Assembly (NCBI RefSeq): GCF_008801575.1
Contig: NZ_VZPL01000025.1
Location: 1-64,000 of the forward strand
Origin: Xanthomonas cissicola
GTDB lineage: Bacteria; Pseudomonadota; Gammaproteobacteria; Xanthomonadales; Xanthomonadaceae
Length of the DNA stretch: 64,000 bases
Direction: 5' to 3'
Positions 2,846-13,139 of this stretch are shown here, piece after piece (positions within the stretch are counted from its first letter, which is position 1; every line of letters starts with the position of its first letter). Below the pieces are notes generated by a model. It saw nothing but the letters and a program-made list of their open reading frames with translations. It had not been told where the DNA came from and did no database searches. The translations under genes and the position numbers were made by a program.

Positions 2846-4555
2846 TCAGTATCCGGCCGCCTGGCCGTCCTTGCGGCTTTCCGAAGCACCGTAGTAAACG
2901 CCGCTGACCGGGTCGCGGGCGATGGCCTGATACCCACCGTACGGGCCGTCGGCAAAGATCACCCGATGGCCTTTGCGCATCAGCGCGCGGATGGTGTCGT
3001 AGGAGAAGCCGGTTTCCAGATTCACCTCGCCGCCATCGCTCATCGCGGTGGCCTGCCCGGTCGGTTCGGTGGACCCTTCATGCTGGATGCGCGGCGCGTC
3101 GCCGGCTTCCTGCAGGTTCATGTGGAAGTCCACCAGGTTCATCACGATCTGCACATGCCCCTGCGGCTGCATCGCCCCGCCCATCACGCCGAAGCTAAGC
3201 CAGGGCTTGCCGTCCTTGGTGACGAAGGCCGGGATGATGGTCTGAAACGGCCGCTTGCCCGGCGCATAGCCGTTGGGATGATCCTTCTTCAGCACGAACA
3301 TCTCGCCGCGGTCCTGCAGGATGAAACCCAGCCCCGGCGGCGCCATGCCACTGCCCATGCCGCGATAGTTGGACTGGATCAGCGAGACCATCATGCCGTC
3401 GGCATCGGCCACGGTCATGTAGATGGTGTCGCCTTCTTCCAGCTGCTTGGGTGTCCCCGGCTGTACTTCCTTGAGTGCCTTGTCCATCGAAATCAGCGCG
3501 CGCCGCCGGTTGGCGTAGTCCTTGGAGATCAACTTGGCCAGCGGTGCCGGCTGAAACGCCGGGTCGGCGTAGAAGCGCGCGCGGTCGGCGAACGCCAGCT
3601 TCTTGGCCTCGGTGAACAAGTGCACGTGCTCAGCCGAGCCGAACGGAATCTTGGAGAAGTCGTAGCCTTCGAGGATGTTGAGCATCTGCAACGCGGCGAT
3701 GCCCTGGCTGTTGGGCGGCAGCTCCCATACGTCGTAGCCGCGATAGTTGGTGCTGACCGGCTCGACCCACTCACCCTGGTGGCTGGCCATGTCGTCGTAA
3801 CTCAGATACCCGCCATTGGCCTTGAAGTAGGCACCGATGGTACGGGCGATGTCGCCCTTGTAGAACGCATCGCGACCGCCGTCGGCAATCTGCTGCAGCG
3901 TGTTGGCCAGGTTCGGGTTCTTCCACAGCTCGCCCTTGCGCGGGGCGTGGCCGTCGATGGTGAATTGCTCCTTGAAACCGGGGTATTGCGACAGGCGCGG
4001 CACCGAACGGTCCCAGTAATAGGCGATGGTCTCGGCGACCGGATGGCCTTCGCGCGCGTAGCGGATCGCTGGCGCCAGGTTCTGTGCCATCGGCTTGCGC
4101 CCGAAGCGCGCGTGCAGCGCGAACCAGCCGTCCACTGCACCCGGCACCGACACCGGCAACGGGCCGGTCGGCGGAATGTCCTTCAAGCCACGGCGCTGGA
4201 ACTCGGCCAGGGTCAGCGATTTGGGCGAGCGGCCGGAGCCGTTGTAGCCGTAGAGCTTGTGGGTCTTAGGGTCCCAGACGATCGCAAACAGGTCCCCTCC
4301 CACGCCATTGCCGGTCGGCTCCATCAGGCCCAGCGCCGCATTGGCCGCGATCGCTGCATCCACCGCCGAGCCACCGTCCTTCATCACATCCAGCGCGATC
4401 TGGGTGGCCAGCGGTTGCGAAGTCGCGGCCATGGCATGCGGCGCAATGACTTCCGAGCGGGTGGCAAACGGCTGCCCGGTGACGCGGTCGGCAGCGCCGA
4501 GAGGCGGCGCGAGCAGCGCCAGAGCAGACACCAACAACACAGGTACGCGACGCAT
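2846..4555 (-). CDS. ggt: Gamma-glutamyltranspeptidase
   Basis: Periplasmic Ntn-hydrolase that cleaves gamma-glutamyl bonds of glutathione and glutamine. The precursor has a signal peptide (about residues 1-22, cleaved after GAA). It then matures by self-cleavage before a Thr, here Thr378 in [10 protein letters not shown] (numbering from a GTG at 4558, which precedes the ATG by one codon). The large-subunit core motifs [11 protein letters not shown] and TGNGVGGD are present, and length (about 570) is normal. The glycine pair of the oxyanion region appears as GSGMAPPG. The gene stands alone; a 14-bp tandem duplication lies directly in front of its start. Confidence 0.92.
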
Positions 4556-4559
4556 CACC

Positions 4560-4587
4560 GATGGCCCCTAAGAGATGGCCCCTAAGA
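4560..4587 (-). repeat. 14-bp exact tandem duplication at the ggt ribosome site
   Basis: GATGGCCCCTAAGA occurs twice in direct contact (4560-4573 and 4574-4587). On the minus strand each copy carries TAGGGG, a weak Shine-Dalgarno-like sequence, so ggt has two potential ribosome sites, the nearer 6-9 bases before its start. Confidence 0.85.
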
Positions 4588-4829
4588 CACTGAGAATGAG
4601 GTGCCAACCATACCAGCGGGCTGTGCCCTGCCGTCCAATCGACACTTGCCAGCGCGCTCAATACCGCGCAGATGGTGATCTTCGTCAGCGCTTCTTGTGC
4701 TGTATCGATCATGTTTCATCAGTAACCATGCAGCTGCCATGGGGCTTTGCAGGCGACTCGGCACATCGATGCGGATGTTTCATGCGCAAGGGTTGACACC
4801 CTGGTTGCCGCGGTGGTTATCTCAGGCCC

Positions 4830-4952
4830 ATGCCGCACCACTCCACGACCTCGAACGCCCCCATGTCCGCGCCCTCCGGCGCGTTGGCTGCGTCGCTTCT
4901 CGTGCTCGTACTTATTACCTCGCCAACCGGTGCGGGACGAGACTTCGTGTAG
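4830..4952 (+). CDS. Branched-chain amino-acid leader peptide
   Basis: A 40-codon frame (ATG 4830, TAG 4950-4952; an internal ATG at 4863 would give 29 residues) whose centre reads LLVLVLI, encoded at 4896-4916. The codons include CTT, GTA and ATT, which look unusual in this GC-rich sequence. The frame ends 28 bases before a terminator hairpin and is followed by ilvC. This is the hallmark of a ribosome-mediated attenuation leader: when charged tRNA-Leu, -Val or -Ile is scarce, the ribosome stalls in this run. The upstream ATG has an AGG three bases before it; the internal ATG has no ribosome site. The peptide itself probably has no function. Confidence 0.8.
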   Translation: MPHHSTTSNAPMSAPSGALAASLLVLVLITSPTGAGRDFV

Positions 4953-5007
4953 GCAACAGACACACAAGGCTTCGATCAGACCCCGCACCGGCAACGGCGC
5001 GGGGTTT
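4927..5007 (+). promoter_or_regulatory. ilv operon attenuator (antiterminator/terminator)
   Basis: Terminator: CCCCGC (4981-4986) pairs with GCGGGG (4999-5004), with an inner CCG-GCAA-CGG stem-loop and then TTTCGCGTTT. Antiterminator: CCGGTGCGGG (4927-4936), which overlaps the end of the leader frame, is perfectly complementary over 10 bases to CCCGCACCGG (4982-4991), the 5' arm of the terminator. The two folds exclude each other. A pausing hairpin could form between GTTGGC (4883-4888) and GCCAAC (4922-4927), or between TCTCGT (4898-4903, in the Leu codons) and ACGAGA (4937-4942). The mechanism is inferred from well-known ilv and leu attenuators. Confidence 0.8.
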
Positions 5008-5142
5008 CGCGTTTCAGGGATCACCAAAAGTTTCGAATGACATGAACGACATCGCTGCCACATCCGCAACATCGCCATGCGCCCAGCCGCGCATGGGCGC
5101 CTGTGGTTGCCTGCGCAGTGCCATCGCTCGTCCCCGCTTTGC

Positions 5143-5173
5143 TCAGCCGGCCAGTGCACGCACTGCCGGCTGA
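5143..5173 (+). other. Stable hairpin in the ilvC 5' region
   Basis: TCAGCCGGC-C-AGTG pairs with CACT-GCCGGCTGA (13 pairs, one bulged C, 4-base loop). It ends about 49 bases before the ilvC ATG and lacks a clear T tract. It may stabilise or be a processing point of the ilv mRNA downstream of the attenuator. The rest of 5008-5221 shows only the ilvC ribosome site (AAGGA). Confidence 0.45.
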
Positions 5174-5221
5174 TCCATTTATCCACTGCCCATCTCCACT
5201 GCCAACCCGCAAGGACATTCC

Positions 5222-6223
5222 ATGAGCAACGACACCCAACCGAAAATCGCGATCATCGGCTACGGCAGCCAGGGCCGCGCACATGCGCTGAACCTGCGCG
5301 ATTCCGGCTTCGACGTCACCGTCGGCCTGCGTCCCGGTGGCCCGACCGAGGCCAAGGCGCAGGCCGATGGCTTCACCGTCGTGGCGCCGTCCGAGGCGGT
5401 CAAGAGTGCTGACCTGGTCGCCATCCTGACCCCGGACATGGTGCAGAAGAAGCTCTACGAAGAGGTCATCGCCCCGAACATGAAGCAGGGCGCCTGCCTG
5501 CTGTTCGCGCATGGCCTGAACGTGCATTTCGACATGATCACCCCGCGCGCCGATCTGGACGTGGTACTGGTCGCGCCCAAGGGCCCGGGCGCATTGGTAC
5601 GTCGCGAATATGAAATCGGCCGCGGCGTGCCGTGCATCTATGCGGTCTACCAGGACACCAGCGGCAAGGCCGAGCAGTTCGCGTTGACCTATGCCGGCGG
5701 CCTGGGCGGCGCGCGCGCCAACATCATCAAGACCACGTTCAAGGAAGAAACCGAAACCGATCTGTTCGGCGAGCAGGCCGTGCTATGCGGCGGCGCCTCC
5801 TCGCTGGTGCAGGCCGGTTTCGAAGTGCTGGTCGAGGCCGGCTATCAGCCGGAAATCGCATACTACGAAGTGCTGCACGAATTGAAGTTGATCGTGGACC
5901 TGTTCTACGAAGGCGGCATCACCCGTATGCTGGAATTCGTTTCCGAAACCGCGCAATACGGCGATTATGTCAGCGGCCCGCGCGTGATCGATGCCGGCAC
6001 CAAGGCGCGCATGAAGGATGTGCTGACCGACATCCAGAACGGCACCTTCACCAAGAACTGGGTGGCCGAGTACGACGCCGGCCTGCCGAACTACAACAAG
6101 TTCAAGCAGGCCGATCTGGAGCACCCGATCGAGGAAGTGGGCAAGAAGCTGCGCGCCAAGATGGTGTGGCTCAACGGGCAACAGCAAGCCGCTGCCGCAC
6201 CTGCGAATCAACAGGCGGCATAA
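5222..6223 (+). CDS. ilvC: Ketol-acid reductoisomerase, class I
   Basis: Catalyses the second common step of valine and isoleucine synthesis: Mg-dependent alkyl migration and NADPH reduction of acetolactate or acetohydroxybutyrate. At 333 residues it is the short class I form. The Rossmann motif is GYGSQG (13-18). The knotted C-terminal domain holds the metal and catalytic residues His97, Asp180, Glu184, Glu216 and Glu220 ([26 protein letters not shown]). The C-terminus is an Ala/Gln-rich tail. AAGGA lies 7 bases before the ATG. It is the first structural gene behind the attenuator, so the whole operon should respond to branched-chain amino-acid supply. Confidence 0.97.
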
Positions 6224-6263
6224 CGCCGCCTCCCCCACCGCTTAAACCGAAGGTCCGCAACGC

Positions 6264-7985
6264 ATGAACACCTCCGCACACAGCACGCCCCGCAATGGCG
6301 CGCGCTGGCTGACGCAGGCCCTGGAAGCCGAAGGCGTGGAAACGCTGTTCGGCTATCCGGGCGGCACCATCATGCCGTTCTACGACGCCCTGGTGGATTC
6401 CAGGCTCAAGCACATCCTGGTTCGTCACGAACAGGGCGCTGCACTGGCTGCCAACGGCTATGCCCGTGCCAGCGGCCGGGTCGGCGTGTGCGTGGCCACC
6501 TCCGGCCCGGGCGCATCCAACCTGGTCACCGGCATCGCCGATGCGATGCTGGACTCGGTGCCGATGATCTGCCTGACCGGCCAGGTCGCCACGCCGCTGC
6601 TGGGCACCGACGCATTCCAGGAGCTGGACGTGTTCGGCATGACCATGCCGATCGTCAAGCACAGCTTCCTGGTGCGGCGTGTGGAGGAGCTTCCGGAGAT
6701 GGTGCGCGAGGCGTTTCGCATTGCGCGCGAAGGACGTCCTGGGCCGGTGCTGATCGACCTGCCCAAGGACGTGCAGGTGGCCGACGCCTCGCATCTGCCC
6801 CTGCATGTTCCGGCAGCGGTGTCGCCGCCGCCGGCGCCGGCGGACGCGAAACTGGCCGACGCGTTGGCAGCAATCGCCAGCGCCGAACGCCCGGTGGTGT
6901 ACGGCGGGGGCGGGATCGCGCTGGCCGGCGCGGTGGAAGCCTTCCGGCATTTCGTCGAGGCCACCGGCATCCCGACCGCGCTGACCTTGCGCGGCCTGGG
7001 GGCATTACCGCATGCGCATCCGGACTATCTGGGCATGTTGGGCATGCACGGCACCCGTGCGGCCAATATGGCCATCCAGGAATGCGATCTGCTGGTGGTG
7101 GTCGGTGCGCGTTTCGACGACCGTGCCACCGGCAAACTGAGCGAGTTCGCACCGTTCGCACGCGTCATCCATCTGGATGCCGACGCATATGAGATCTCCA
7201 AGCTGCGCACCGCCGATATCGCGGTGCCCGGCGACGTGGCAGTGAGTCTGAAAGCCTTGAGTGCGGCGCGCGGCAACTGCCAGGCCTGGCGCACGCGCTG
7301 TTTCGCCAACCGCGAAAAGTTCGGCGCGCGTTACGACGCGCCCGGCACCGACATCTACGCACCGGCGCTATTGAAGCGCCTGAGCGAAGTGGCTCCGGCC
7401 GACACCATCATCGCCTGCGATGTGGGTCAGCATCAGATGTGGGTGGCGCAGCATTGCCGCTTCAACGACCCGCGCAATCACCTCACCAGCGGCGCGCTGG
7501 GCACCATGGGCTTCGGCCTGCCGGCCGCGATGGGCGCACAGTTCGCCTGCCCTGACCGCACCGTGGTGCTGGTCTCCGGCGACGGCAGTTTCATGATGAA
7601 CGTGCAGGAGCTGGTGACGATTGCACGCTGCAAGCTGCCGGTGAAGATCGTGCTGCTGGACAACAGCTCGCTGGGCATGGTGCGGCAGTGGCAGGAACTG
7701 TTCTTCGCCGAGCGTTACAGCGAAATCGACCTGTCCGACAACCCGGATTTTGCGGCGTTGGCGCACGTGTTCGGCATTCCGGCCAAGCGCATCATCGCCC
7801 GCGGCGATGTGGACGCGGCACTGGCCGACTTGCTGGCGCAGCCCGGTCCCGGCCTGCTGCATGTCGCGATCGACGCGCGTGCCAATGTGTGGCCGCTGGT
7901 GCCGCCCAACAACGCCAACAGCACCATGCTGGACAGCAATCCCGCACATGCGGCCAAGGAGACATCGCATGCGTTACCGGCTTGA
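6264..7985 (+). CDS. ilvG: Acetolactate synthase, large (catalytic) subunit
   Basis: Thiamine-diphosphate enzyme joining two pyruvates, or pyruvate and 2-oxobutyrate, in the first step of valine and isoleucine synthesis. At 573 residues it has normal length. Visible features are the activating Glu56 in RHEQGAALAANGYA, the FAD/central domain, and the ThDP-Mg motif GDGSF...LLDNSS near residues 440-470. It starts 41 bases after ilvC and overlaps the small-subunit gene by 17 bases, so the two subunits are probably translated in step. Confidence 0.95.
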   Translation: MNTSAHSTPRNGARWLTQALEAEGVETLFGYPGGTIMPFYDALVDSRLKHILVRHEQGAALAANGYARASGRVGVCVATSGPGASNLVTGIADAMLDSVPMICLTGQVATPLLGTDAFQELDVFGMTMPIVKHSFLVRRVEELPEMVREAFRIAREGRPGPVLIDLPKDVQVADASHLPLHVPAAVSPPPAPADAKLADALAAIASAERPVVYGGGGIALAGAVEAFRHFVEATGIPTALTLRGLGALPHAHPDYLGMLGMHGTRAANMAIQECDLLVVVGARFDDRATGKLSEFAPFARVIHLDADAYEISKLRTADIAVPGDVAVSLKALSAARGNCQAWRTRCFANREKFGARYDAPGTDIYAPALLKRLSEVAPADTIIACDVGQHQMWVAQHCRFNDPRNHLTSGALGTMGFGLPAAMGAQFACPDRTVVLVSGDGSFMMNVQELVTIARCKLPVKIVLLDNSSLGMVRQWQELFFAERYSEIDLSDNPDFAALAHVFGIPAKRIIARGDVDAALADLLAQPGPGLLHVAIDARANVWPLVPPNNANSTMLDSNPAHAAKETSHALPA

Positions 7986-8226
7986 TCTGGTGCTGAAGCC
8001 GGCAGAAGGCGCATTGGTGCGGGTGATCGGCATGACCGAACGCCGCGGCTTCCGCCCATGCGCGATCCAGGGCGCAGCAGCGCCAGACGATGCCGGACGC
8101 TGGCATCTGCTGCTGGATGTGGACAGCAACCGTCCGCCGGAAACGCTGCGTCTGCAGCTGGAAAAGGTCTACGACTGCGAATCGGTGGTGATCACCGCAC
8201 TGGAATCGGTCGAGGCTGCGGCATGA
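7969..8226 (+). CDS. ilvM: Acetolactate synthase small subunit, ACT domain
   Basis: An 85-residue single ACT-domain protein, the size of enteric IlvM and about half of IlvN/IlvH. It starts MRYRLDLVLKPAEGALVRV and has the hydrophobic pattern of an ACT fold. AAGGAG lies seven bases before the ATG, inside the ilvG end. It is expected to bind the catalytic subunit and stabilise or tune it; IlvM-type subunits in enterics do not confer valine inhibition. The gene ends in an ATGA overlap with a tiny downstream frame. Confidence 0.85.
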   Translation: MRYRLDLVLKPAEGALVRVIGMTERRGFRPCAIQGAAAPDDAGRWHLLLDVDSNRPPETLRLQLEKVYDCESVVITALESVEAAA

Positions 8227-8301
8227 GCATGCAGACCTCGCGCGACCATCAGACTGCTGTCCGGAGGTGTCTTCTTCCGGATCGCCCGCGCGCGTGCCGC
8301 A

Positions 8302-9420
8302 ATGCCTGATTCCGGCCGCCCTTCCGCACAGGAGCCAGAGGTAGGCGACGTGGCCGTGAGCGTGGCCGACGTGCTGGCCGCACAGGCGCGCCTGCGCAAG
8401 TACCTGTCGCCCACGCCGCTGCACTACGCCGAACGCTTCGGTGTGTGGTTGAAGCTGGAGAATTTGCAGCGCACCGGCTCCTACAAGGTGCGCGGCGCAT
8501 TGAATGCGTTGCTGGCCGGGCTGGAACGCGGCGATGAGCGCCCGGTGATCTGCGCCTCGGCCGGCAACCACGCGCAAGGTGTGGCGTGGTCGGCGTACCG
8601 GCTGGGTGTGCAGGCCATCACGGTAATGCCCTATGGCGCGCCGCAGACCAAGATTGCCGGTGTCGCGCATTGGGGTGCCACGGTGCGCCAACATGGCAAC
8701 AGCTACGACGAAGCGTTCGCGTTTGCGCGCGAGCTGGCCGACCAGAACGGCTATCGCTTCCTGTCCGCCTTCGACGACCCGGACGTGATCGCCGGCCAGG
8801 GCACGGTGGGCATCGAGCTGGCGGCGCATGCGCCGGACGTGGTGATCGTGCCGATCGGCGGCGGTGGCCTGGCCTCCGGCGTGGCGCTGGCATTGAAGTC
8901 GCAAGGCGTGCGCGTGGTCGGGGCGCAGGTGGAAGGCGTGGATTCGATGGCGCGCGCCGTCCGCGGCGATCTGCGCGAAATCGCTCCGGTCCCAACGCTG
9001 GCCGATGGCGTGAAGGTCAAGATTCCAGGCCTGCTCACGCGCCGCCTGTGCTCGAGCTTGCTCGATGATGTCGTGATCGTGCGCGAGGCCGAATTGCGCG
9101 AAACATTGGTGCGCCTGGCACTGGAAGAACACGTCATTGCCGAGGGCGCTGGCGCCCTCGCGCTGGCCGCCGGTCGCCGCGTTTCCGGCAAACGCAAATG
9201 TGCGGTGGTCTCTGGCGGTAATATCGACGCAACCGTGCTGGCCACACTCTTGTCCGAGGTGCGGCCGCGTCCGCCACGCAAGCCGCGCCGCCGCAATACC
9301 GAGCGACTCCGCAACGAACGCAGCGCCAATCCGCCACCCGCCACACACGTTCTTTCCCGCCCATCCGCAGTCGCTTCAACGCCTGTCACCGCCATCGCCG
9401 TAGAGGAGTCTTCCTGGTGA
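8302..9420 (+). CDS. Threonine dehydratase, short form without ACT domain
   Basis: PLP enzyme deaminating threonine to 2-oxobutyrate, the precursor that commits carbon to isoleucine. Lys62 in TGSYKVRGA forms the Schiff base; [13 protein letters not shown] and the phosphate loop GGGGL are intact. At 372 residues it has only the catalytic domain and resembles TdcB more than IlvA, which carries about 180 extra regulatory residues. The last ~50 residues are an Arg/Pro-rich tail ([12 protein letters not shown]). A GGAGG lies 34 bases before the ATG, too far for this start, so the exact start is uncertain. The stop overlaps the leuA GTG by four bases. Confidence 0.9.
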
Positions 9421-10979
9421 ACACGACCGTATCCAACCAGACCCCGCGTATCCGAATTTTCGACACCACCCTGCGCGACGGCGAGCAATCCCCCGGCTGC
9501 AGCATGACGCCCCAGCAGAAGCTGGTCATGGCGCGCGCGCTGGACGAACTCGGCGTGGACATCATCGAAACCGGTTTTCCTGCCAGCTCGCATTCGGACC
9601 GCGAAGCGGTGGCGATGATGGGCCGCGAACTGCGCCGCCCCACCCTGGCGGTGTTGTCGCGCTGCCTGCAGGCCGATATCGAAACCTCGGCCAAGGCGCT
9701 GGAGACAGCCGCAAACCCGCGCCTGCATGTGTTCCTGTCCACCAGCCCGCTGCACCGCGAGCACAAGCTGCGCATGAGCCGTGAGCAGGTGCTGGAATCG
9801 GTGCACCGGCACGTGACGCTGGCGCGCGGCTATGTCGACGATGTGGAATTTTCTGCCGAGGATGCAACCCGCACCGAAGAAGACTTCCTGGCCGAGGTCA
9901 CCCGCGTGGCGATCGCCGCAGGCGCCACCACGATCAATTTGCCCGACACGGTCGGCTTCACCACGCCGGAAGAAATCCGTGGCATGTTCTCGCGCCTGAT
10001 CGCCAGCGTGGAAGGTGCCGACAAGGTCATCTTCAGCGCGCACTGCCACAACGATCTGGGCCTGGCGGTGGCCAACTCGCTGGCAGCCATCGAAGGCGGT
10101 GCGCGCCAGGTGGAATGCACCATCAATGGCATCGGTGAGCGTGCGGGCAATTGCGCGCTGGAAGAAATCACCATGGCGCTGAAGGTGCGCGGTGCCTTCT
10201 ACAACATCGATTCGGCGATCAATACGCCGCGTATCGTGTCCACCTCGCAATTGTTGCAACGCCTGGTCGGCATGCCGGTGCAGCGCAACAAGGCAGTCGT
10301 GGGCGGCAACGCCTTCGCGCACGAATCGGGCATTCATCAGCACGGCATGCTGCGCCATCGCGGCACCTACGAAATCATGCGCCCGGAAGATGTGGGCTGG
10401 GAATACTCGCAAATGGTACTGGGCCGCCACAGCGGCCGCGCCGCGGTCGAGCAGCGGCTGCGCGCGCTGGGTTATCTGCTGGAGGAGGAAGAGGTCAAGC
10501 TGGTGTTCGAACAGTTCAAGGCGCTGTGCGAGAAGCAGCGCGTGGTGACCGATGCCGATCTGCAGGCATTGATGCAGGACGCCACGGTGCAGGAAGGCTA
10601 TCGCCTGGCGTCGATGACCATCAGCGACGTGGGCAGCCGCGCCAACGCGTTGGTGGAGTTGTCCGACCCGGAAGGCAATCGCGTGGCCGAAACCGCGCAG
10701 GGCAACGGGCCGGTGGATGCGCTCTTCGGCGCACTGGCCTCGGCCACCGGCGTGAAGCTGGAGCTGGACAGCTACCAGGTGCACAGCGTGGGCATCGGTG
10801 CGGACGCGCGCGGCGAAGCCAGCCTGAGCGTGCGCCACGACGGCGTGGAATACGAAGGCACCGGCACCAGCAAGGACATCATCGAAGCCAGCGCGCTTGC
10901 GTGGCTGGATGTGGCCAACCGCTTGTTGCGTCAGCGCGAGCGTGGCGTGGTCGCCGGCAAGACGGCTGCGGTGGCGTAA
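9417..10979 (+). CDS. leuA: 2-isopropylmalate synthase
   Basis: First enzyme of leucine synthesis, condensing 2-oxoisovalerate with acetyl-CoA. The TIM-barrel domain shows [13 protein letters not shown] near residue 15 (metal Asp and Arg) and [13 protein letters not shown] (metal His pair). The C-terminal LeuA regulatory domain (about 390-510, [20 protein letters not shown]) should bind leucine for feedback inhibition. It starts with GTG, overlapping the threonine dehydratase TGA by four bases; AGAGGAG lies eight bases upstream, indicating coupled translation. It is the last gene of the operon and is followed by a terminator. Confidence 0.96.
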
Positions 10980-11010
10980 CGCTGCTCATTGGGCAGATGA
11001 TGCAAGCCTC

Positions 11011-11048
11011 ACGGCCAGCAGCGTGATCTGCTGGCCGTTCCGGTTTTT
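11011..11048 (+). terminator. Terminator of the ilvC-leuA operon
   Basis: An 11-bp perfect stem ACGGCCAGCAG/CTGCTGGCCGT (11011-11021 with 11028-11038), a 6-base loop, then TCCGGTTTTT, 31 bases after the leuA stop. Confidence 0.85.
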
Positions 11049-11324
11049 GCGTGCGAACTTTTTTACAAGTGTGTCGGTTAGATGCTTACGCGCTTGCCGA
11101 CGTGGCAAAGCTCCGGCCTACTGCAGGCACTTGCACGCATACCGGCCTGGGACACGCCGCGAGTACGTCCATGTAGGCTCTGGCGCGGCATCCATGCCGC
11201 TCAAGGTGCCACACCGGTCCGCGAGCAAGTACCACCGGCTGCTGTCGGCAGCTGAGGACACGGATGCGCTATCGCGCTAGCGACCGTTCCTGCGCACTAC
11301 AACGCTTCGGGACTGCGAGCGCTT
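11049..11324. other. Intergenic region between convergent leuA and leuB
   Basis: No credible gene or RNA. It contains small palindromic units such as TACGTCCATGTA (11163-11174) and GGCATCCATGCC, which resemble short Xanthomonadaceae intergenic repeats but were not matched to a named family. No minus-strand terminator for leuB is obvious. Confidence 0.4.
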
Positions 11325-12398
11325 TTACAGCGCGGCCACCACCGCATCGCCCATCGCCACGGTACCGACCTTGGTAGTGCCTTCCGACCAGATGTCGGCA
11401 GTGCGCAGGCCTTGATCGAGCACCTTGCCAACCGCATGTTCGATGGCATCTGCTGCAGTGGCCTGCGCGAAGGTGTAGCGCAACATCATCGCCACCGACA
11501 GGATCGTGGCCAATGGATTGGCGATGCCCTTGCCGGCGATATCCGGTGCCGAGCCATGGCAGGGTTCGTACATACCCTTGCTGTTGGCATCCAGCGAGGC
11601 CGAAGGCAGCATGCCGATGGAACCGGTGAGCATGGATGCCTGGTCGGACAGGATGTCGCCGAACATGTTGTCGGTCACGATCACGTCGAACTGCTTGGGA
11701 GCACGCACCAACTGCATCGCTGCGTTGTCCACGTACATATGCGACAGCGCGATATCCGGGTAGTCCTTGGCCACTTCTTCGACTACTGCACGCCATAGCT
11801 GGCTCGATGCCAGCACGTTGGCCTTGTCGACCGAACACAGCTTCTTGCCGCGCAGGCGTGCCATGTCGAAGCCGGCCTTGGCGATGCGACGAATCTCGCT
11901 CTCGCTATATGGCAAGGTGTCGTACGCCTGGCGTTCGCCGTTGTCCAAGGTGCGGTTACCACGCGGCTGGCCGAAATAGATGCCGCCAGTGAGTTCGCGC
12001 AGGATCAGCAGATCCAGCCCGGCCACGACCTCCGGCCTGAGCGTGGACGCATCGGCCAGCTGCGGATACAGCAATGCCGGCCGCAGGTTGGCGAACAAGC
12101 CCAGCTGCGAGCGGATCTTGAGCAACCCACGCTCCGGCCGCAGCGCCGGGTCGATGGTGTCCCACTGCGGGCCACCCACCGCACCCAGCAGCACCGCATC
12201 GGCGCCACGCGCGCGCTCCAGTGTTTCATCGGCCAATGGGCTGCCGTATTTGTCGTACGCAGCGCCGCCCAGCTCGTCATACACCAGCTGAAAACCCAGA
12301 CCGTGTTGCGCGTCAATGCGCTTCAACACCTTGACCGCTTCGGCCATGATCTCCGGCCCGATCCCGTCGCCGGGAAGAATCAGAATCTGCTTGCTCAT
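11325..12398 (-). CDS. leuB: 3-isopropylmalate dehydrogenase
   Basis: NAD- and metal-dependent oxidative decarboxylation of 3-isopropylmalate in leucine synthesis. 357 residues. Visible signatures are [16 protein letters not shown] at the N-terminus, the substrate Arg region [16 protein letters not shown], the catalytic Tyr in the IYFGQPRG segment, [14 protein letters not shown] (catalytic Lys), and the metal-binding Asp in [15 protein letters not shown]. It is the last gene of leuC-leuD-leuB on the minus strand, 93 bases after leuD. Confidence 0.96.
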
Positions 12399-12491
12399 GC
12401 CACCCTCGTGAAGTGACGCCGCAGCGTCATTGACATCAATCCAATGCAGTCCGCACGCAGCGCGGTGAGCGCGCGCATCTGCGGCTCGACA

Positions 12492-13139
12492 TTACTGCAA
12501 CGCGCCAAACAACCACGGTTGGCGCGCGCGATGGCCTTGCTCGAAGCGCCCGATGGCATCGGCGTCCTGCAAGGTGAGGCCGATATCGTCCAGGCCATTG
12601 AGCAGGCAGTGTTTGCGGAAGGCATCGATGTCGAAGCCGTACTCCACGCCATCGGGGCGGCGTACGCGTTGCGCGGCCAGATCTACGGTGAGCCGGTAGC
12701 CCTCGGTCGTCAGGCATTGTTCGAACAATGCATCGACCTGCGCTTCGTCCAGCACGATCGGCAGCAGGCCGTTCTTGAAACTGTTGTTGTAGAAAATGTC
12801 GGCAAAGCTCGGCGCGATCACGGTGCGAAAGCCGTATTCGTCCAGCGCCCACGGCGCATGCTCGCGCGAGGAACCACAGCCGAAGTTTTCCCGGGCCAGC
12901 AAGACGCTGGCGCCCTGATAGCGCGGGAAATTGAGCACGAATTCCGGATTGAGCGGGCGCGTGCTGTTGTCGCGACCAGGCTCGCCGATATCCAGATAGC
13001 GCCACTCGTCGAACAGGTTCGGACCGAAACCGGTGCGCTTGATCGACTTGAGGAACTGCTTGGGAATGATCTGGTCGGTATCGACATTGGCGCGATCCAG
13101 CGGCGCGACCAGTCCGGTGTGTTGGGTGAAAGGAGTCAT
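12492..13139 (-). CDS. leuD: 3-isopropylmalate dehydratase, small subunit
   Basis: The swivelling domain of isopropylmalate isomerase, partner of LeuC. 215 residues, with the family start [20 protein letters not shown] and substrate-contact motif [15 protein letters not shown]. Homologous proteins start at the same place, but no ribosome site precedes this ATG: the upstream bases belong to the GGGAATC-type repeat that separates it from leuC. Translation may depend on coupling or on the mRNA fold. The reaction is stereospecific isomerisation of 2- to 3-isopropylmalate. Confidence 0.95.

Follow-up and report, generated by a model that had tools for sequence, protein, structure and literature searches.

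Gene content of the locus

The window analysed here, a 64,000-nt stretch of Xanthomonas cissicola DNA, is one contig of a 5.35 Mb genome and encodes on its forward strand a set of genes for branched-chain amino acid synthesis behind a short leader ORF. Family models identified ilvC (5222–6223; NF004017, 517 bits, cut-off 336), ilvG (6264–7985; NF006524, 940 bits, cut-off 738), a threonine dehydratase gene (8302–9420; NF006455, 796 bits, cut-off 489), and leuA (9417–10979; NF002086, 760 bits, cut-off 532). An 85-aa frame at 7969–8226 matched the ilvM model NF008362 with 35.2 bits, under the cut-off of 68. The order ilvC-ilvG-ilvM-threonine dehydratase-leuA that the earlier note had given agrees with these models, with ilvM assigned below its cut-off. 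Successive genes are joined by a gap of 40 bases (ilvC-ilvG), a 17-base overlap, a 75-base gap, and a 4-base overlap. The last three values match the five-gene cluster of X. campestris, which according to excerpts of the published study has an ilvC-ilvG gap of 45 bases and is one operon by RT-PCR (PMC12575087). The closest named match of the window's IlvC is from X. euvesicatoria (99%, locus L002).

The leader ORF extends from 4830 to 4952 on the forward strand (40 codons; translation MPHHSTTSNAPMSAPSGALAASLLVLVLITSPTGAGRDFV) and ends with a TAG stop codon at 4950–4952. In its centre are the codons CTT CTC GTG CTC GTA CTT ATT (4896–4916), the LLVLVLI run that had been noticed earlier in a short frame at this site. 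Searches of three leader peptides against Pfam and NCBIfam gave a best E value of 0.12; the leader is a conserved short ORF, three members of which found no model in either collection. Rfam models searched over 4000–12500 had no match at the leader, and the two matches with E values up to 1 lie elsewhere and were dismissed as chance matches. A gamma-glutamyltransferase gene (2846–4558, minus strand; TIGR00066, above cut-off) diverges from the leader, and the promoter described below sits in the gap between the two.

Terminator and competing antiterminator

Behind the leader ORF, a hairpin at 4978–5007 (forward strand) has 12 pairs and one A·C mismatch, with a folding energy of –22.9 kcal/mol that none of 200 shuffled sequences reached. 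The earlier note had placed a terminator at 4981–5004; there is a hairpin at this site, and its extent is wider. Its 5′ arm holds region 3 (4982–4991, CCCGCACCGG), which is the exact reverse complement of region 2 (CCGGTGCGGG, 4927–4936) in the tail of the leader ORF. The perfect 10-base complementarity that had been described between 4927–4936 and the terminator 5′ arm is therefore an exact match to 4982–4991. Between the leader tail (4917–4960) and this arm, ten matched bases were found in none of 5000 letter shuffles (maximum nine, in four shuffles). Folding bore out both structures: the terminator is present in the fold of the whole leader, and once the 3′ arm is excluded (4915–4996), folding at minimum energy yields the antiterminator (–29 kcal/mol; 0/200 shuffles as stable).

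The hairpin is followed by an interrupted T tract (TTTCGCGTTT; TTTCGCGTTTC at 5005–5015, forward strand) with four T in its first eight bases; the commonest value in the alignment described below is six of eight, in 32 of 73 rows. The interruption is found in the window and its Xanthomonas relatives, and most other rows have six to seven T in eight. With so poor a tract, the Xanthomonas hairpin might terminate weakly or be assisted by a factor such as NusA. Neither a sigma-70 promoter nor a terminator was listed at the site by generic scans.

Recovery of the leader in relatives

We compiled 94 sequences, consisting of the window, 24 loci (L002–L025; chosen from 80 loci as being in or near the order), and 69 loci from 149 genomes of the window's family (29 plus 40, the latter chosen because their DNA matched). 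In 80 of the 94, window included, we recovered a leader frame that contains a branched-chain run and is followed, past its stop codon, by a hairpin. These 80 leaders comprise 77 distinct leader ORFs, and two pairs of loci (L005/L147 and L006/L106) are probably duplicate records. No leader was recovered in the remaining 14 (L007, L012–L017, L019–L022, L024, L025, and L149); for L007 just 106 nt of upstream sequence were examined, and for the L0xx loci among them absence is not implied because only a stricter pattern was applied there. Relatives close to the window's type have the leader in front of ilvC. At L009 it stands before a dihydroxy-acid dehydratase ORF that is followed by ilvC; this ORF scored 722 bits with a subfamily model (cut-off 644) and 601 bits with the ilvD equivalog, just under its cut-off of 618.

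Loss of the LLVLVLI run or of terminator/antiterminator pairing in close relatives, which the earlier note had named as evidence against an attenuator, was not seen; codon run and pairing are both retained in the aligned relatives (73 distinct rows, some trimmed at the 5′ end). Compensatory changes, for which alignment of relatives had been suggested, are present in the terminator and, more narrowly, in the antiterminator. In the terminator, 91.8% of cells are paired and seven of 13 pairs changed on both sides; none of 500 shuffles was as high on four of five measures, and six were on the fifth. For the antiterminator the paired fraction is 86.2% of cells, with a change on both sides in 28. 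No shuffle of 500 was as high in cells paired, cells changed, or covariation score; the number of pairs changed (436/500 shuffles as high) and of pair types (127/500) are not above the shuffles. Sliding the antiterminator partner by one to three columns left 29–49% paired, a control that favours any structure taken from one aligned row, as the antiterminator was. A single column pair accounts for 24 of the 28 both-side changes (U-A 42, C-G 23, U-G 3, A-U 1, other 3, gap 1), and pairing at the three outer positions frequently fails. The antiterminator signal is therefore real but narrow, and the general antiterminator is nearer seven to eight pairs than ten.

An alignment-free swap of strands among 68 distinct sequences showed that cognate strands pair better than swapped ones, with none of 2000 permutations as low for pairings 2:3 and 3:4, and at most one of 1000 for either pairing within two sub-groups. 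Some influence of shared ancestry persists in the swap tests: pairing of the 5′ end with region 3, which nobody proposes, gave 9/1000 and 70/1000 in the sub-groups. Because this unproposed pairing also scored low, pairing of the 5′ end (first 36 nt) with region 2 (0/2000 overall; 12/1000 and 1/1000 within sub-groups) is taken as a lead only. The classic scheme also has a protector stem, in which the control-codon region pairs with region 2. This stem occurs in the minimum-energy fold and gave 704/1000 and 2/1000 in the sub-group swap tests; over all rows it shows no covariation (316/500 shuffles as high on cells paired) and so lacks general support. Elements, conservation, and covariation as given up to this point are direct observations. 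Terminator and antiterminator share the strand 4982–4991 and both pairings are conserved with compensatory change, in keeping with the earlier proposal that termination and antitermination are competing folds.

Distribution across the order

Model R1 found matches at E ≤ 0.1 in 204 genomes out of 250 from the order; this count overstates the spread because R1 also picks up partial and terminator-only matches. From these matches we drew 60 further loci, mostly the strongest and some for family spread, and read them singly. They span nine families (f1, f3, f4, f5, f7, f9, f10, f11, and f12); 58 are from eight families other than the window's (35 from f12) and two from the window's own. Families f2, f6, and f8 had weak R1 matches only. 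Among 20 of the loci (L182–L201), again from nine families, the downstream gene is ilvD in ten, leuA in eight, and ilvG in one, and L195 was left without an assignment. The leader device thus stands before ilvC, ilvD, ilvG, or leuA, and the recurrence of one leader design before different genes indicates that the device has been kept through changes of the downstream gene.

A second R1 match in the window's own genome was discarded as a plain hairpin that by eye has no branched-chain leader. Outside the order, many R1 matches were partial or limited to the terminator, with E values down to about 3e-6; of four full-length matches there that were inspected, one is near a Val/Ile-rich frame and three have none by the scan used.

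Codon choice in the control run

The control run prefers codons that are rare in window genes. In the nine-codon run of the 77 distinct leaders, Leu is encoded by CTT or CTC in 266 of 272 cases, Ile by ATT in 111 of 113, and Val by GTA in 88 of 188. The corresponding values for the rest of the leaders, which hold a few extra codons because the ATG used for L009 was too far away, are 80/203, 11/67, and 1/143. In a reference set of 35 ORFs of the window, selected by a GC rule and totalling 16,944 codons, CTT makes up 2.4% and CTC 12.4% of Leu codons (together 14.9%; CTG 65.3%), ATT 11.9% of Ile codons, and GTA 5.8% of Val codons. Fifty-nine of the further loci, scored with a ten-codon run window that sometimes missed the last run codons, have CTT/CTC for Leu in 270/297 cases within and 92/198 outside the run, GTA for Val in 105/123 and 6/106, and ATT for Ile in 55/61 and 54/107. 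The distance from the Ile codon to the stop is 11 codons in 67 of the 77 distinct leaders.

CTT and CTC are read by the same tRNA-Leu(GAG), and ATT and ATC have one tRNA in common. Because of this common tRNA, selective charging of isoacceptors does not explain the preference for ATT over ATC. Such charging is known as the cause of biased codons in attenuation leaders of E. coli, and the leu operon, described in excerpts of the same work as the paradigm for rare codons in a control run, resembles the Xanthomonas leader in its unusual Leu codons (PMC1183508).

These data also bear on a reading in which the hairpin terminates part of the transcripts constitutively, the short ORF encodes a small protein or is a chance frame, and a DNA-binding protein regulates the operon. 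We regard it as very improbable, since codon run, codon choice, in-frame antiterminator strand, and distance to the stop have been kept as a set, and strands pair better with their own partners than with exchanged ones. It would accommodate the repression of the X. campestris operon by indole-3-acetic acid, a response whose route is unexplained in excerpts of that study (PMC12575087).

Predicted promoter and transcription start

Upstream of the leader ORF, on the same strand, lie a –35 element TTGACA (4793–4798), present in 80 of 80 family leaders, and an extended –10-like element TGGTTATCT (4814–4822), which is visible in the sequence and the family profile and consists of TG at 4814–4815 and TTATCT at 4817–4822, weak compared with TATAAT. 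In all 80 family leaders TTGACA is found 35–39 nt before an in-frame ATG (36 or 37 nt in 71 of 80; none lacks such a pair), as read with leader starts that were picked by their distance to TTGACA where 30 of the 80 leaders have several in-frame ATGs before the run. The distance from this ATG to the run varies from 24 to 52 codons. Alignment of 78 distinct sequences on TTGACA revealed T and G at offsets 21–22 (63 and 65 sequences) and T at offsets 24, 25, and 29 (75, 61, and 65), i.e., the extended –10-like consensus TGnTTnTCT. TGnTTnn[CA]T is present in 61/80 family leaders and TAnnnT in 5/80. Canonical spacing puts +1 at offset 36, which is the A of the ATG or the preceding base; from the spacing of the elements, the transcription start in the window is predicted at 4829–4830 on the forward strand, at the leader ATG or one base before it.

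Shine-Dalgarno-like words (AGGA, GGAG, or GAGG at –18 to –4) are present in none of the 78 distinct family sequences. The first 30 nt fold weakly, with a mean of –2.3 kcal/mol vs –6.4 kcal/mol for other 30-nt windows of the frames. Among the 60 further loci, TTGAC lies 35–39 nt before the ATG in 59, with L193 the sole exception, as against four of 1173 upstream control points. In those 59, TAnnnT precedes the ATG by 6–8 nt in 45 (control points, 7/1180) and Shine-Dalgarno-like words were found in three. Within the window, the TTGACA-ATG pattern by itself is no rarer than expected by chance (one found, 1.59 expected), and the argument for the start therefore rests on conservation. The fixed TTGAC(A)-ATG distance together with the –10-like element points to a transcript start at the ATG, and spacing and the absence of Shine-Dalgarno words fit such a predicted 5′ end. 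With a polymerase start no more than about two bases away from the ATG at 4830, the leader mRNA would probably be translated as a leaderless mRNA.

The same attenuator could instead be carried by an ordinary leadered mRNA from a promoter further upstream, with TTGACA conserved for another role, e.g., as a protein binding site. The weak –10 element of Xanthomonas, the lack of a promoter scan hit, and the choice of starts by TTGACA distance in leaders with more than one in-frame ATG before the run speak for such an arrangement. We nevertheless judge it unlikely, given that the 35–39 nt distance holds across both sets of loci despite varying leader length, that a –10-like element lies in between, and that a Shine-Dalgarno-like word is absent from every distinct family sequence. 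A start at the leader ATG is thus retained as the preferred reading.

The codons directly after the leader ATG (window 4830–4846 and family leaders; ATG NYG CAN CGC MAC) are conserved beyond most of the peptide before the run. This conservation may reflect initiation on leaderless mRNA or pairing with the antiterminator strand.

Proposed attenuation mechanism

Compensatory change accompanies the conservation of codon run, terminator, and competing antiterminator, and branched-chain genes lie behind them, which upholds the original suggestion of a leucine/valine/isoleucine attenuator before ilvC. We consider it highly likely that the leader acts as a ribosome-mediated transcription attenuator that senses the charging of Leu, Val, and Ile tRNAs and controls ilvC-ilvG-ilvM-threonine dehydratase-leuA, with the leader probably leaderless. 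From the observed elements we infer the start site, stalling, termination, and readthrough as follows. RNA polymerase would begin no more than about two bases from the leader ATG (4830), and the 40-codon leader would be translated from a leaderless mRNA. When branched-chain aminoacyl-tRNAs are scarce, the ribosome would stall on 4896–4916 and leave 4927–4936 free to capture 4982–4991, so that hairpin 4978–5007 would be blocked and transcription would continue into ilvC. When they are plentiful, the ribosome would reach the stop codon at 4950–4952 and cover part of 4927–4936; hairpin 4978–5007 would then form and transcription would end before ilvC. A stalled ribosome covers roughly a dozen bases downstream. 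The conserved 11 codons from the Ile codon to the stop fit this predicted geometry of stall and release.

The scheme spells out how the main operon for branched-chain amino acids may be regulated in a group to which plant pathogens belong. Should the leaderless start prove true, the leaders would provide many natural variants in which to study leaderless initiation combined with attenuation, and the codon tuning of a sensor.

Excerpts of the X. campestris study treat about 500 bp before ilvC as the promoter region, and indole-3-acetic acid represses a reporter that carries about this much of the DNA upstream of ilvC (PMC12575087). Judged by distances in relatives, this segment (cf. window 4330–5221) should include the leader, and the indole-3-acetic acid effect could accordingly act at the attenuator. 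A wider scenario can be offered tentatively, and we think it rather doubtful as a whole: an attenuator inherited across most of the order on leaderless mRNA, with its promoter locked to the start codon and ribosomes loading on the bare 5′ end, in which the first codons and a possible pairing of the 5′ end with the antiterminator might tie initiation to termination, which would have been moved or re-used among ilvC, ilvD, ilvG, and leuA, and through which repression by indole-3-acetic acid could pass.

Comparison with known attenuators

Attenuators of branched-chain amino acid operons are textbook systems. In enterobacteria, ilvGMEDA (ilvL) and leuABCD (leuL) are preceded by a Leu/Val/Ile-rich leader peptide, a competing antiterminator, and an intrinsic terminator, a design that the Xanthomonas leader has in common with them. 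The ilvL and leuL leaders are translated from leadered mRNA with a Shine-Dalgarno site, whereas the ATG of the Xanthomonas leader is apparently at the 5′ end.

Among the matches listed by our literature searches, none described this attenuator from Xanthomonas or elsewhere in the order; the comparative study of proteobacterial attenuators by Vitreschak et al. (2004) may list one. A search with the letters of the leader peptide returned no paper. The words promoter, operon, attenuation, and leader are all absent from PMC5733099, and the word attenuation is absent from the main text of PMC12575087. Beyond the earlier note, our comparison adds the fixed promoter-to-ATG distance, the codon choice, and the presence of the leader before other operons.

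The predicted leaderless start is the most interesting feature of the Xanthomonas leader, and leaderless attenuator leaders are already known from Sinorhizobium meliloti and Corynebacterium glutamicum. As described in excerpts of the respective reports, the 5′ end of the S. meliloti trpL attenuator RNA (rnTrpL/peTrpL) is the ATG of the leader ORF, as predicted here; this system differs in that it responds to tryptophan, belongs to Alphaproteobacteria, and encodes a 14-residue peptide with functions in trans (PMC7298713). In Caulobacter crescentus, the ilvBN operon is preceded by Ile and Val codons in tandem and by a Rho-independent terminator, which resembles the Xanthomonas arrangement in another operon and another lineage (PMC4117421, in part). 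Transcription of C. glutamicum ilvBNC starts one nucleotide from the start codon of the IlvL leader, with CUU and GUA as control codons. It is thus like the Xanthomonas leader in its start next to the ATG, its control codons, and its branched-chain operon, and differs in belonging to Actinobacteria and in its 15-residue peptide MTIIRLVVVTARRLP (PMC11857589, in part). An H1 hairpin over the start region has been proposed for C. glutamicum in the same excerpts, to which the 5′ end pairing in the Xanthomonas family corresponds as a weak lead only.
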